DNA from: Citrobacter youngae ATCC 29220
GTDB taxonomy: Bacteria > Pseudomonadota > Gammaproteobacteria > Enterobacterales > Enterobacteriaceae
DNA length: 64,000 nucleotides
Assembly: GCF_000155975.1 (NCBI RefSeq)
Contig: NZ_GG730302.1
Coordinates: 26,599 to 90,598 of the forward strand
Reading direction: 5' to 3'
The notes beneath the pieces were generated by a model. It saw only the letters and a list, made by a program, of their open reading frames with translations, searched no databases and had not been told where the DNA came from. Shown here one piece after another: positions 12,393 through 15,737 of the stretch. Positions within the stretch are counted from its first letter, which is position 1. Every line of letters starts with the position of its first letter. A program made the position numbers and the translations under genes.

Positions 12393-12396
12393 GGTT

Positions 12397-12451
12397 TTGC
12401 CGGATAGCGACGCTGGCGCGTCTTATCCGGCCTACATAAAGCGTCCGGCAA
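12397..12451. repeat. REP element, yheS-nadV
   Basis: A gccggatagcg...cttatccggcctac hairpin is followed by a partial gtccggca unit. It lies between the convergent yheS and nadV, at the left edge of the accessory cassette. Confidence 0.8.
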
Positions 12452-12460
12452 AAGCACAGC

Positions 12461-13951
12461 TTAACGTTGCGCCGCCAGGCGCTGGCGGATCTGTTCGAAG
12501 TGCTCACGGTTAAACAACTTCCCGTTGAGAAAACGGGTTTTTAGCTCCCCTTCCTGCTCCTGCGCCCAGCTTTGTTCATCATGCAGGCGCAATTCCCCTT
12601 GCTCATCACGCGTTACGCGCAGCAGACCACGGGCGGAGCGCTTTAAGCCGTTATCGGTTTTTGGCTCTTTAAAAATCGTCCTACCTTCGCCGTCAACTTC
12701 TCCCCACGTTGCCTTCATGGCAAAACCGAAGGTGTCACGCGTGTTGTACTGATAGGTAAAGGAACCGACGCCAAACACCACGTTTGAACTGGCAAATCCT
12801 TTCGCTTCCAGACGACGCAGGATCTCATTCGCCCGCTCAAGGGTGATGGAATCGCCATAAATCAGCCCCACATGTGGGTCGAGCACCTTGTAGCCTTTGG
12901 CGTTAACCGTGCCGCCAAATATTTCCCACAGCACCTCCACAGAACCTTTCTCCTGTGCCGTACGATCGGCCCGCGTATCCTCATCCGCGCCGGTACCGCA
13001 CAGGATCTCAACCGGATTGCCGCTGTCCGGGCGGAAAACCACTCGTCCTTCACGCGCCAGAATGATGCTCTTCAGCTCGCGGGTGTACTCCGTCAGGACC
13101 TGCCAGTAGTCCCAGGTATCAGAGACAATCGACACAAACCCCTGCGGGTAGATATCGGCAATCAGCCGACGGAAGGTTTCAATCTCATGCTCACGCTCGC
13201 CCATGCACATCACGCTGTGCTCGGTAGCCGGAATGCTGGCGCCGATAAAATACGCGTCTCCGTCAGTGTAGTAATCACGGGCGTAGAGAAGCGACGGAAT
13301 GCTGTCAGTGCCTTTAAAACTCAACAAGTGGCCGCTGCCCGCCTGCATGGTATCCTGCAGGCCGGACATGCCGCGGAAGGAAAAGTCATGGCACTGGAAG
13401 TCAAGGTGCGTCATGTCGCTGCAGGTTTTCTCTGCCCAACGTTCGCAGATTTTGCGGTAGTGGTGGGCAATCGTGGCGTTCGTTGATGCTTTCCACAATT
13501 CCGCTGACAGCACCGTCTCCAGGTAATTCACCAGCCAGAAAAATTCAGGCTGGGTATTGATGATAGTTAAAACCGGCACAGCCATCGGCACTTTGCTACC
13601 TTCATCCAGCGCTTTGATGTGCAGCGGCAGATAGCCCAATTGATGCAGGGCGCGGATATGATCAACCGCTACCGCATCTTTGCCGAGATAGCTGTCCATG
13701 ACCTGTTTGTATTCGCTGACAACCTCATCTTCCGCACGGGCAAAGAACGCCTCATTAAACAGATCAACCAGAAACCACTGCAGAAAACCTTGCAGGCCAA
13801 AAAACACCAGTTTGCCATCCGGCAGCGGTGACGAGAAAAAGCGATCGCTGCGCGGGGTAAAGTTGGAATACACGCGGCTGGTTCCTTGCGGATACTGTAC
13901 GCGGTGAGAAACTTTGTAGCCGTCGATAGCCAGAATCGGGTTCATTTTCAT
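12461..13951 (-). CDS. nadV: Nicotinamide phosphoribosyltransferase (NAMPT/NadV)
   Basis: NadV joins nicotinamide to PRPP to give NMN, the non-deamidating NAD salvage route. The protein is 496 aa, like human NAMPT. Motifs align with NAMPT: HDFSFRG (188-194), PATEHSV with the catalytic-type His245, IVSDTWDY with Asp278, FRPDSGNP with Arg307 and Asp309, then YGDSIT and FGVGS. GGGAGAT lies 7 bases before the ATG. It is 14 bases after the prs-like gene, so the two form one operon. K-12 lacks it at this locus. No NMN adenylyltransferase is in the cassette, so NadR or another enzyme elsewhere must finish NAD synthesis. Confidence 0.95.
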   Translation of the reverse strand: MKMNPILAIDGYKVSHRVQYPQGTSRVYSNFTPRSDRFFSSPLPDGKLVFFGLQGFLQWFLVDLFNEAFFARAEDEVVSEYKQVMDSYLGKDAVAVDHIRALHQLGYLPLHIKALDEGSKVPMAVPVLTIINTQPEFFWLVNYLETVLSAELWKASTNATIAHHYRKICERWAEKTCSDMTHLDFQCHDFSFRGMSGLQDTMQAGSGHLLSFKGTDSIPSLLYARDYYTDGDAYFIGASIPATEHSVMCMGEREHEIETFRRLIADIYPQGFVSIVSDTWDYWQVLTEYTRELKSIILAREGRVVFRPDSGNPVEILCGTGADEDTRADRTAQEKGSVEVLWEIFGGTVNAKGYKVLDPHVGLIYGDSITLERANEILRRLEAKGFASSNVVFGVGSFTYQYNTRDTFGFAMKATWGEVDGEGRTIFKEPKTDNGLKRSARGLLRVTRDEQGELRLHDEQSWAQEQEGELKTRFLNGKLFNREHFEQIRQRLAAQR

Positions 13952-13965
13952 AATCAGTATCTCCC

Positions 13966-14829
13966 TCAGGCGCGGTAAATCGCGTCAATGTCGATAAGCT
14001 CAAGCTGCGGATGTTCCAGCGTCGGGGCAGCGAAAGAGGTGGTGGTGTAGATAGCATCAATACCGTTCGCAAACAGGTGTTCGACGCCCTTAGAAAAAAT
14101 ACCGTGGGTGACATACAGGCTGACGCTGCGCGCTCCGGCATCACGGAGTACCTGCGCAGAACCAATGAACGTACCGCCAGCGTCACACAGGTCGTCAACA
14201 ATCAGCAGATCCTTGCCGCGGACATCACCCGTTACCAGCGCGAATCCCGTCAGCTTGCCGCTTGCTACATCCCGTTTCTTACTCAGGATGGCGTACTGCG
14301 CAGCACCGGTTGCTCTGGCAACGGCATCAATCTTCTTCAGCGACCCGGCATCGGGGGCGACCAGCATTAGCGCTTTTTGCTGGAACTGGCGTTGCAGGGT
14401 CGCGCTGTGCAGCAGGCAAGTCTCTTGCGAAATCGCCACAAAATTATCGATAGCTGCCGCCGCCGCGTCGCTGTGCGGATCGAGCACCTTCACCTTATCG
14501 AAGCGCAGCGTATTGAGCTGGCTGGCAAAGACTTTCAGCGCAAAGCTGTCACCCGCCACCATATGGCGGTCCTGACGTGCCCACGGCAACCAGGGAAGTT
14601 CGAGATGGCTGACCAGCACATCCGTTTGATGGCGAACCGCCTCCACCAGCTGCGCCAGCAGCATAAAGTCGTTCATGTCGCGCATCGCCGCCGCACGAAT
14701 GCGCATCAGGCGAGCAAAGGGTGGCAATGCTTCAGTCACCTTCAACCAGACGGCGCCATCAGGAAAAATACCATCGACAACCGCGTATGACTGGTCGTCC
14801 AACGTTAATGTCAATTTTACGCTCATCAT
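13966..14829 (-). CDS. Divergent ribose-phosphate pyrophosphokinase (PRPP synthetase-like)
   Basis: The protein probably makes PRPP from ribose 5-phosphate and ATP for the NadV encoded next to it. It is 287 aa, shorter than housekeeping Prs (315). It keeps ARQDR (84-88), a counterpart of the Prs ATP-site motif; DPHSD (117-121) in place of DxH; and the PRPP loop VDDLCDAGGT (211-220). The N-terminal 75 residues are not Prs-like by eye. The start is ATG-ATG; I took the first. It heads the operon, and the NrtR-type operators lie directly upstream. Only its divergence makes the exact activity uncertain. Confidence 0.88.
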   Translation of the reverse strand: MMSVKLTLTLDDQSYAVVDGIFPDGAVWLKVTEALPPFARLMRIRAAAMRDMNDFMLLAQLVEAVRHQTDVLVSHLELPWLPWARQDRHMVAGDSFALKVFASQLNTLRFDKVKVLDPHSDAAAAAIDNFVAISQETCLLHSATLQRQFQQKALMLVAPDAGSLKKIDAVARATGAAQYAILSKKRDVASGKLTGFALVTGDVRGKDLLIVDDLCDAGGTFIGSAQVLRDAGARSVSLYVTHGIFSKGVEHLFANGIDAIYTTTSFAAPTLEHPQLELIDIDAIYRA

Positions 14830-14839
14830 GCTTCCCCTC

Positions 14840-14864
14840 TAATTGTGTCCCTTCGACACAATTA
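14840..14864. promoter_or_regulatory. Probable NrtR operator, site 1
   Basis: A perfect 10-bp-arm palindrome TAATTGTGTC-CCTTC-GACACAATTA is centred at 14852, 11 bases upstream of the prs-like start codon. The core TGTCCCTnnGACA is repeated at 14869 (site 2). GTC...GAC palindromes in the nrtR/target spacer are typical of NrtR autoregulated divergons. Binding is inferred. Confidence 0.75.
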
Positions 14865-14868
14865 ATAA

Positions 14869-14881
14869 TGTCCCTAAGACA
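14869..14881. promoter_or_regulatory. Probable NrtR operator, site 2
   Basis: The sequence TGTCCCTAAGACA is a second copy of the 13-base core, in the same orientation and 23 bp from the first. Its dyad is weaker, with 4-bp arms TGTC/GACA. Two in-phase copies suggest that two dimers bind cooperatively. A possible minus-strand promoter with -35 TTGCTT and -10 CATTAT, spaced 17 bases, would place it in the spacer; that promoter call is weak. Confidence 0.65.
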
Positions 14882-15017
14882 CATATTAAGCAAGCACAAA
14901 ATGCATTATTTTTAGACTGCGACATAATCAACTGATAAATAATAAGAAAAAACGAACCTTGCCCCCCGGTATTGGGCTGGTACACTTGTGAGCGTTGCAA
15001 ATCATCGTGAGTACTTT

Positions 15018-15737
15018 ATGACCACCGAAGCCGACTACCTGAATCAATACGATGCCCGCCGCTTTCCCTCACCTCTGGTGACGGTAGATAGCGTGTTGTT
15101 TACCCTGCATCAACAGGCGCTGTGCGTATTACTGGTTGAACGTGCAAACCAGCCGCAAAAAGGTCGTTGGGGATTACCAGGTGGCTTCATTGATATCGAA
15201 CACGATGACTCAACCCGCGCCACGGCGCTGCGCAAGCTCACAGAAAAAACAGGCGTTTTGCCTTCGTGGCTGGAACAGCTGGATACCTTTTCCGGCCCGG
15301 ATCGCGACCCGCGCGGCTGGAGCCTGACGGTCACCTGGTTTGCGCTTATCGCCTGGGTAGACTGCGAGCCACATATCGCCAGCGTCAGCAATGCCCGTTG
15401 GGTACCGGTTGATAAGCTGGCAGAATATTCGCTCGCCTTCGACCATGAGAAAATCATTGCCGCCGCCCTGCACCGCCTGCGGCAAAAAACAATGTATTCA
15501 TTGCTGCCGGTTTACTGCTTGCCCGAGACGTTTACCCATGGGCAACTACTGGAAGCCACCGAGGTGATCCTCGGCCAGTCTATCCAGCGTAAAAGTCTGA
15601 TTCGCCGCTTTGAGGCATCAGGTATGTTCGAAGATACCGGAGAGAGTGTGGCGACAGGCACGCGCAAAGCCCGTCTGTGGCGGCGTAAGCCCGATGTCGA
15701 TATACATCTTTTCTCGCGTAACCTGCTAACTGACTAG
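15018..15737 (+). CDS. nrtR: Nudix-related transcriptional regulator NrtR
   Basis: NrtR regulators repress NAD biosynthesis or salvage genes and sense ADP-ribose through a Nudix domain. The protein is 239 aa from ATG 15018; a GTG at 14988 would add 10 residues, and neither start has a strong Shine-Dalgarno. The Nudix domain covers about 18-145 and a winged helix about 155-235 (RKSLIRRFEASGMF). The Nudix box is broken: RKLTEKTGV (72-80) replaces REUxEExGU, so two catalytic Glu are Lys. That fits a sensor, not a hydrolase. It is divergent from prs-like/nadV, its likely targets. Confidence 0.9.
   Translation: MTTEADYLNQYDARRFPSPLVTVDSVLFTLHQQALCVLLVERANQPQKGRWGLPGGFIDIEHDDSTRATALRKLTEKTGVLPSWLEQLDTFSGPDRDPRGWSLTVTWFALIAWVDCEPHIASVSNARWVPVDKLAEYSLAFDHEKIIAAALHRLRQKTMYSLLPVYCLPETFTHGQLLEATEVILGQSIQRKSLIRRFEASGMFEDTGESVATGTRKARLWRRKPDVDIHLFSRNLLTD

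Follow-up and report, generated by a model that had tools for sequence, protein, structure and literature searches.

Which reactions are carried out by a prs-like and a nadV-like gene that stand side by side between yheS and yheT of Citrobacter youngae, divergent from a gene for an NrtR-type regulator? We addressed this question in a stretch of 64,000 nucleotides of strain ATCC 29220 (contig NZ_GG730302.1), referred to as the window. An earlier note had read the locus as a PRPP synthetase–NAMPT pair with a direct nicotinamide-to-NMN route. The open reading frames confirmed the three genes it had described and their arrangement (Table 1), with a GTG at 14988 as a possible earlier start of nrtR. 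Pfam assigned NAPRTase and NAMPT_N to the namat product, Pribosyltran and Pribosyl_synth to the adps product, and NUDIX (PF00293) and NrtR_WHD (PF21906), both above cut-off, to the nrtR product, which bears out the claimed divergent regulator. The genes are absent from K-12, as the note had held: there, yheS and yheT share a single base, and a megablast search of the E. coli collection (20,395 records, 5,426 genomes) gave no match to the cassette. Promoter and terminator scans found nothing, and PADLOC returned only weak matches, all to domains of other systems.

Table 1 Features of the three-gene cassette, in window positions.
Feature	Position	Strand	Remarks
namat (nadV-like), predicted nicotinamide ADP-ribose transferase	12461..13951	-	496 aa; clamp GSFTYQYNTRD = residues 396-406
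adps (prs-like), predicted ADP-ribose pyrophosphate synthetase	13966..14829	-	287 aa; upstream of namat with a 14-base gap
Predicted NrtR operator, adps-proximal copy	14846..14858	.	TGTC-N5-GACA
Predicted NrtR operator, second copy	14869..14881	.	23 bp from the first
nrtR, Nudix sensor and winged-helix repressor	15018..15737	+	239 aa; divergent from adps; 49% identity to Shewanella NrtR (3GZ5)
Last 25 bases of nrtR	15713..15737	+	scar remnant in some cassette-free genomes of the genus

The ligase looks like a Namat, which would yield NAD+ directly, and not like a NAMPT, which would yield NMN. It scored 560 bits against the SPbetaL1 Namat (structures 9W5X/9W5W; PMC12774641) compared with 232 bits against human Nampt (6E68). 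The Namat clamp helix has the consensus GSX-phi-X-phi-X-phi-TRD with aromatics at positions 3 and 7 (PMC12774641), and the window clamp fits this consensus, including both aromatics. Furthermore, 19/20 NAD+ contacts of the crystallised SPbetaL1 enzyme are kept; at the twentieth, A362 is replaced by S, which is also found in 17/24 other Namat-type proteins. The clamp-loop stacking residue (Arg, or Lys/Tyr and then the next residue) is likewise present, with R37 of the window aligning to R40 of SPbetaL1. Fold and catalytic core (F190, R193, D216, R307, D309) are common to the window ligase, Nampt proper (human 6E68 and the phage ValKK3 type) and the H. ducreyi-type NadV, and this match is not discriminating because Namat carries the core as well. 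The clamp residues of the Nampt-type and H. ducreyi-type proteins, however, are unlike those of the window ligase, which lies outside the Nampt clade with its clamp-equivalent residues (G/A/E at 3, K/Q at 7).

The prs-like gene, correspondingly, looks like an Adps acting on ADP-ribose rather than a PRPP synthetase. Its product shares features of 29 aligned Adps-like proteins that are absent from the genome's own PrsA: it has DDLCDAGGT and DPHSDAAAAAI where PrsA has the DDMIDTGGT loop and the QIQGFF stretch (DLHxxQIQGFF). By BLAST, the window protein scored 155 bits against the Adps of Bas63, 123 against that of ICP1, 98 against that of SPbetaL1, 89 against its own PrsA and 83 against a Staphylococcus phage Adps, and is thus only slightly closer to the SPbetaL1 protein than to PrsA. 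We consider it quite unlikely that the operon is, after all, an NrtR-regulated PRPP synthetase and NAMPT turning nicotinamide into NMN. The database labels agree with such a pathway: a curated NCBI model names the ligase a nicotinate phosphoribosyltransferase (619 bits, cut-off 405), and the prs-like product passes the NCBI subfamily model for ribose-phosphate diphosphokinase, TIGR01251, with 126 bits (cut-off 113; own PrsA 422). The SPbetaL1 Namat also retains activity on PRPP in vitro, even with its clamp mutated (PMC12774641), and NMN in E. coli was reportedly raised by the NadV of S. oneidensis, of H. ducreyi and of mouse, and likewise by one from B. velezensis. A B. velezensis plasmid homologue has both the clamp and an Adps neighbour. 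Against the NMN route stand the Namat-type clamp, the missing PrsA signatures and the gene content of the genome, which already encodes a housekeeping Prs. Together with a PncA-family gene above cut-off and a second, stronger NAPRTase-family gene, this Prs makes a PRPP-supply rationale weak. The earlier claim that a donor-making and a donor-using enzyme are encoded together was upheld, though the substrates are probably others than PRPP and NMN.

The clamp and the Adps gene also occur together across the wider family. Among 103 NadV-like proteins, an Adps-like gene was found in the stretch examined around 69/69 proteins whose clamp has aromatics at positions 3 and 7, of which 46 are from Enterobacterales and several are near-identical, and near 0/28 proteins missing both aromatics. 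These counts were made after removal of L048 and L070 (stop within the match) and of L002, L053, L108 and L071 (duplicates or fragment). In the 295 genomes of the window's family, Adps matches at E < 1e-45 occurred in 30, comprising 29 with an intact Namat and one with a broken Namat, and all four genomes with a 36–38% Nampt were without Adps, which again argues against a PRPP-based pair. As an absolute rule the association was rejected, since 13/77 clamp-bearing loci on viral contigs had no Adps match in the flank examined. For phylogeny, further near-copies were removed, leaving 78/103 rows for a first tree and, with L104 also left out, 77 rows for a second analysis. The first tree (quick method, SH-aLRT only, with 23/75 inner branches open) placed the H. 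ducreyi-type NadV within the Namat side. With the clamp columns excluded, a single clade of the H. ducreyi-type group and Nampt was not rejected (p-AU 0.497), and the tree required two changes of Adps and five of the clamp. The link between clamp and Adps comes down to one or two independent contrasts on the tree. In view of this p-AU and the few contrasts, a reversion of the H. ducreyi-type NadV from the Namat side was rejected as proven; in these alignments it is a possibility.

The regulator points to ADP-ribose as the signal. Shewanella oneidensis NrtR (SoNrtR; structures 3GZ5, 3GZ6, 3GZ8) has reportedly been studied in Rodionov 2008 and Huang 2009. The window protein resembles it over its full length, with the same sensor-repressor architecture, and R42 aligns with the ADP-ribose-contacting (phosphate-contacting) Arg41 of SoNrtR. 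The Nudix box is altered alike in both proteins (RKLTEK in the window, RKLAEK in SoNrtR). According to PMC4666351, ADP-ribose suppresses DNA binding by SoNrtR. In two genomes, NrtR genes 93–94% identical to SoNrtR lie directly before an Adps–Namat pair with the operator core of the window, TGTC-N5-GACA, and the adjoining ligase carries the clamp; the operators are 86 bp apart at these two loci, in contrast to the closer spacing in the window. It is unlikely that the same enzymes are controlled by NAD+ or another metabolite instead of ADP-ribose. Ligands do differ within the NrtR family (NAD in Corynebacterium NdnR and L-arabinose in Bacteroides AraR), and the window protein scored 224.7 bits, below the cut-off of 400, in the NCBI equivalog model for the ADPR-responsive repressor. 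Both the likeness to SoNrtR, including the kept arginine and the similarly altered Nudix box, and the position of SoNrtR-like genes beside Adps–Namat speak for ADP-ribose.

The predicted operators form two tandem palindromes ahead of adps. Single matches to the pattern were rejected as evidence in their own right, as the two found in the window, compared with 0.78 expected, were reached in 20/100 shuffles. The pair is unique genome-wide at up to two mismatches, although a reversed control pattern also occurred at only two places per strand. The tandem arrangement is kept in 39/40 Enterobacterales loci; the eight core letters were set by the search pattern in this comparison, and their conservation therefore proves nothing. 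What speaks for these predicted sites is their occurrence as a pair, the distance between the two and the conservation of the arrangement. NrtR was present at 46/47 bacterial loci, 0/80 viral-contig loci and 0/13 phage or plasmid loci.

Because of the Namat clamp, the NAD+ contacts and the Adps signatures unlike those of the genome's own Prs, the enzyme pair is most likely NARP1, and we consider it probable that the operon is a chromosomal, substrate-inducible form of this pathway, that is, ADP-ribose-gated NAD rebuilding. In such a circuit, NAD+ would be split to nicotinamide and ADP-ribose; ADP-ribose would bind NrtR at its impaired Nudix domain, and the repressor would then leave its two operators. 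Adps would transfer pyrophosphate from ATP to ADP-ribose, giving ADPR-PP, and Namat would join ADPR-PP and nicotinamide to NAD+, in two steps overall and without an NMN step. ADP-ribose would be both inducer and substrate, and therefore the operon should silence itself as ADP-ribose is consumed. The physiological trigger would be glycohydrolytic loss of NAD+ through defence, toxins or ADP-ribosylation. The guess that the cassette matters when NAD is consumed was, on this reading, right; NARP1 would rebuild NAD+ from its breakdown products. An overlapping possibility, to which we assign a clearly lower probability, is dual use: in resting cells the ligase would take PRPP to make NMN, and it would take ADPR-PP to make NAD+ once ADP-ribose increases. 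The PRPP activity that survives clamp mutation in SPbetaL1 and the NMN raised by S. oneidensis NadV, taken with the clamp-bearing ligase beside SoNrtR-like genes, are compatible with it; overexpression yields say little on normal levels, however, and the operators and the strict Adps pairing argue for the ADP-ribose role as the selected function.

With the NARP1 pairs of two phages, SPbetaL1 and Bas63, and with the NrsA–NrsB pair of ICP1, which PMC11559045 likens to NARP1, the window shares the adps–namat order, clamp, NAD+ contacts and Adps features. It differs in being chromosomal and vertically inherited and in having a divergent NrtR with tandem operators, NrtR being absent from the phage loci examined. 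A bacterial Adps–Namat pair, the chromosomal NARP1 of Paenibacillus foliorum, is active in vitro and in vivo (PMC12774641, which also cites a survey). Chromosomal NARP1 is thus already published, and the new part would be that a sensor of the pathway's own substrate gates it: the word NrtR is absent from PMC12774641, and such gating was not found in the literature searched. We slightly favour the broader view that proteobacterial operons described as nrtR–prs–nadV nicotinamide salvage are host NARP1 circuits induced by their own substrate, that the gated version belongs to bacteria and phages carry these two enzymes ungated, and that in some bacteria, namely the H. ducreyi group, a plain Nampt may be what was left after loss of Adps and the clamp. 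If true, a routine vitamin salvage label would become a host-owned, signal-controlled pathway in Citrobacter, Kosakonia, Klebsiella, Serratia, Erwinia and others, whose chemistry has until now been examined chiefly as phage counter-defence against bacterial immunity. One would then also understand why the best-studied NrtR has ADP-ribose for its ligand, which would be an odd signal in PRPP-based salvage. Recovery from glycohydrolytic NAD+ loss, induced by ADP-ribose, would be a testable answer to the question raised in PMC12774641 on the role of bacterial NARP1.

The evidence favours an old presence of the cassette in this lineage, with losses. Among 40 Enterobacterales three-gene loci (window included), yheS was nearby in 28 and yheT in 32, and at least one of them in 39/40, the exception being a 5.9 kb contig (L035) with neither. 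In the 28/40 loci with all six genes, cassette distances track those of yheS, kefB and kefG (r 0.70 to 0.94), comparable to the flanking genes among themselves (r 0.79 to 0.94). A recent phage-derived counter-defence pair captured by the chromosome is accordingly highly improbable. Such pairs are widespread in phages (1,937/50,697 records match the ligase, and 1,484 match Adps, perhaps including plain Prs), but only one of the 1,937 falls in the 60–80% band of ligase identity, the remainder and all 52 plasmid records being lower, and the lack of NrtR in the phage loci examined likewise speaks against a capture. The nearest kin are other Enterobacterales contigs, and neither phages nor Pasteurellaceae, which the earlier note had proposed to check. 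Its wording that the cassette was inserted between yheS and yheT did not hold in the sense of a recent event, which was rejected from the shared neighbours, the distances and the nrtR tails left in cassette-free genomes. The note had also set an ancestral and universal cassette against its own reading; an old presence is favoured, while universality was rejected, with carriers amounting to 13/17 genomes of the genus and 29/295 of the family. Of the four cassette-free genomes of the genus, one (L116) shows no scar, its sequence being unrelated, two retain the 25-base end of nrtR at 23/25 and 20/25, and another keeps about 15 bases of this tail (16/25 over the whole stretch); the three scar-bearing genomes may share one loss.

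The cassette between yheS and yheT is probably an operon for Adps and Namat that is controlled by a repressor of the ADP-ribose type, with open frames at the places the earlier note had given for its three genes and Pfam domains that agree with the assignments.

Features of the cassette and its predicted regulatory sites
Feature	Position	Strand	Basis or remark
namat (ligase)	12461-13951	minus	open frame
adps (partner, 287 aa)	13966-14829	minus	open frame, 14 bases from namat
nrtR	15018-15737	plus, divergent	open frame
predicted operator TGTCTTAGGGACA	40 bases before adps start	adps strand	sequence only
predicted operator TGTCGAAGGGACA	17 bases before adps start	adps strand	sequence only

The NAMPT label that the ligase had received is probably wrong. 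In the comparison with solved structures, it scored 560 bits to 9W5X/9W5W and 459 to 9KE8/9KEO, whereas human Nampt (6E68) gave 232 and the Xanthomonas enzyme (7YQO) 221. The first pair of structures is the Namat of phage SPbetaL1. Two features define Namat (PMC12774641): a clamp helix of the form GSX-phi-X-phi-X-phi-TRD in which residues 3 and 7 are aromatic, and a stacking residue in the clamp loop. The window ligase reads GSFTYQYNTRD, the same as SPbetaL1, and has R37 at the position of SPbetaL1 R40. Furthermore, 19 of the 20 NAD+ contacts listed for SPbetaL1 Namat (PMC12774641) are identical; the differing one, A362, is S in the window and in 17/24 other Namat-type proteins. A ligase using PRPP only, as a classical NAMPT, is improbable. 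Position 3 is G, A, E or S in the 19 Nampt-type proteins, and position 7 is K or Q in 16/19. H. ducreyi-type NadV (n = 9; one from H. ducreyi and eight taken as Pasteurellaceae) carries Q or R at the first of these positions and R, N or T at the second. The ligase may also serve both donors in vivo, a reading that overlaps with the Adps-Namat one.

The partner, described previously as PRPP-synthetase-like, scores 126 bits with the NCBI model for ribose-phosphate diphosphokinase, above the cut-off of 113 (the housekeeping Prs of the same genome has 422 bits), which speaks against an Adps. The partner shows Adps features (DDLCDAGGTF, DPHSDAAAAAI, KKRDVASG) where the housekeeping Prs has DDMIDTGGTL, DLHAEQIQGFF and DKRRPRAN. 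In all 29 aligned Adps-like proteins, S replaces A after H, QIQGFF is gone, and the loop starts with DD-I/L instead of DDM, then K-x-R-D/N-x-x-x-G; the remainder of the loop is variable, for example in ICP1, SPbetaL1 and a Staphylococcus phage. By BLAST, the partner scored 155, 123 and 98 bits to the Adps of Bas63, ICP1 and SPbetaL1, 89 to its own PrsA and 83 to the Staphylococcus phage Adps, while PrsA reached 69, 61, 56 and 42 against these four phage proteins. ADPR-PP synthetase activity is published for SPbetaL1 Adps (PMC12774641); for ICP1 Adps, it is proposed by inference in PMC11559045.

Clamp and Adps also occur together. Among 103 NadV-like proteins, retrieved by the ligase query and not by Adps, an Adps-like gene lay nearby, within the stretch covered (for some only 1.5 kb), in 69/69 with both clamp aromatics (46 from Enterobacterales, many near-copies), 0/28 with neither, 3/3 phage proteins that have just the first of the two and 1/3 without a readable motif, an association for which the tree gives one or two independent contrasts. 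Across 295 family genomes, an intact relative (at least 78% identity) was found in 29, a 36-38% Nampt in four and only broken or partial copies in two; Adps at E < 1e-45 occurred in 30, namely the 29 intact-ligase genomes and one broken-copy genome that is 49% complete. A ligase tree of 78 proteins (quick method) splits the Nampt side (19 rows, including phage ValKK3) from the remainder with support of 100; H. ducreyi-type NadV may attach on either side of this split. Phage, Shewanella/Vibrio or Pasteurellaceae proteins had been suggested as possible closest kin; instead, the window ligase falls with Citrobacter in a 25-row Enterobacterales clade (support 100), outside which all Namat-side phage proteins branch. 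Its closest named relatives are from Citrobacter portucalensis and C. werkmanii (96%).

The divergent NrtR-type regulator was correctly recognized: it is 49% identical to Shewanella oneidensis NrtR (SoNrtR) over the full length, with the Nudix box altered alike (LRKLTEK in the window, LRKLAEK in SoNrtR). According to PMC4666351, DNA binding of SoNrtR is suppressed by ADP-ribose, whose phosphate is touched by Arg41; this residue is the R of VQR in SoNrtR-like frames and corresponds to R42 of the window. In two genomes encoding an NrtR 93-94% identical to SoNrtR, Adps and a clamp-bearing Namat (GSFTYQHVTRD) follow directly after nrtR, and two GTGTC-N5-GACA sites lie between nrtR and adps. Judging from these two close relatives, the enzymes under the control of SoNrtR, the NrtR whose response to ADP-ribose is best studied, are probably of the same type as those in the window. 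The two predicted operators are 23 bp apart, and a pair with 22-23 bp spacing was present in 39/40 Enterobacterales loci (33 in the remaining one, L035). At up to two mismatches, the tandem pair occurs at this locus alone in the whole 5.15 Mb genome, which is modest evidence because a control search with the reversed pattern yields just two sites on each strand. The surroundings of the operators show no sigma-70 consensus.

NARP1, in which Adps converts ADP-ribose and ATP to ADPR-PP and Namat joins this with nicotinamide to NAD+, is already published for phages, and the chromosomal version of Paenibacillus foliorum works (PMC12774641); that paper also cites an earlier survey of chromosomal NARP1. 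The window operon is probably this pathway with a predicted ADP-ribose-type NrtR repressor. A link between NrtR and NARP1 was not found in the literature searched and may already be in print. Whereas phage NARP1 consists of the Adps-Namat pair without NrtR in the loci examined, the window adds the divergent nrtR. With profiles built from the cassette families, NrtR was detected in 46/47 bacterial loci (all 12 training proteins came from the scanned sets, and two loci are the same Acinetobacter cassette), but in 0/13 phage and plasmid loci (mostly 2.5 kb flanks; Adps in 9/13) and 0/80 viral contigs (best 80 of 582, up to 4 kb flanks; Adps in 67/80). On this distribution, the NrtR gate accompanies chromosomes. 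Outside those sets, the genome L083 (1.5 kb flank) has Adps-Namat without NrtR. The NrtR winged-helix cut-off was exceeded by each of eight NrtR proteins, from sources including Bacteroidota, Paenibacillus and Acinetobacter, and two of the eight had a Nudix score slightly below its own cut-off.

Thirteen viral contigs (L144, L149, L160, L167 and nine others) carry a clamp-type Namat without an Adps match in the flank covered; Adps may be located elsewhere, or PRPP may be used. ICP1 isolate 2019_Mat_B (L048) has an in-frame stop in namat and a shorter annotated Adps, in contrast to an intact second isolate of this phage (L099). The sequence labelled Acinetobacter phage MD-2021a (L052) looks like a chromosome piece of Acinetobacter, with fepC, AraC-type and methionine-pathway genes around Adps-Namat-NrtR. 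Pseudomonas phage PaGz-1 (L102:4394-4873) encodes a macro-domain protein two genes past the pair, possibly another ADP-ribose handler.

As noted before, the cassette is missing from E. coli K-12, where yheS and yheT overlap by one base, and no near match was found in the E. coli collection. The scan of named genomes yielded 45 loci, 39 of them in Enterobacterales and all 39 with the three genes (Citrobacter, Enterobacter, Kosakonia, Klebsiella, Superficieibacter, Pluralibacter, Phytobacter, Franconibacter, Buttiauxella, Mangrovibacter, Serratia, Entomohabitans, Erwinia and one family-level MAG). Cassette distances follow those of neighbouring genes. The nrtR tail survives in two cassette-free genomes of the genus, where 23/25 and 20/25 bases match and stay in register with the flanking sequence; about 15 bases of it are left in a third. 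Since the tail encodes RNL, found near the end of 39/45 NrtR proteins, it is an nrtR remnant and not an ancestral spacer. In a more distant genome (G207), a C-terminal ligase fragment lies 2.3 kb from yheT. The simplest account is ancient presence followed by repeated loss, favoured by the distances and scars over the insertion proposed in the earlier note.

Between the namat stop and yheS, window positions 12393-12460 look like a REP repeat, of which a 36-38 base match adjoins the scar in L113 and L115. The yheS-yheT interval accumulates additional genes. Six loci (L004, L007, L010, L017, L018, L020) have a gene run beyond namat at the yheS position, from about 7600, whose first frame in 6/6 is malonate decarboxylase alpha-like and 551 aa long (Pfam: L004 only). 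In Kosakonia (L018:1993-4113), nrtR is separated from yheT by TelA and a gene of the halogen-hydrolase family (Pfam in L018), with similar frames in L021. Serratia and Erwinia loci (L031, L032, L036) carry a taurine-type operon left of nrtR, at the yheT position, comprising TauD and a substrate-binding protein by Pfam in L032.
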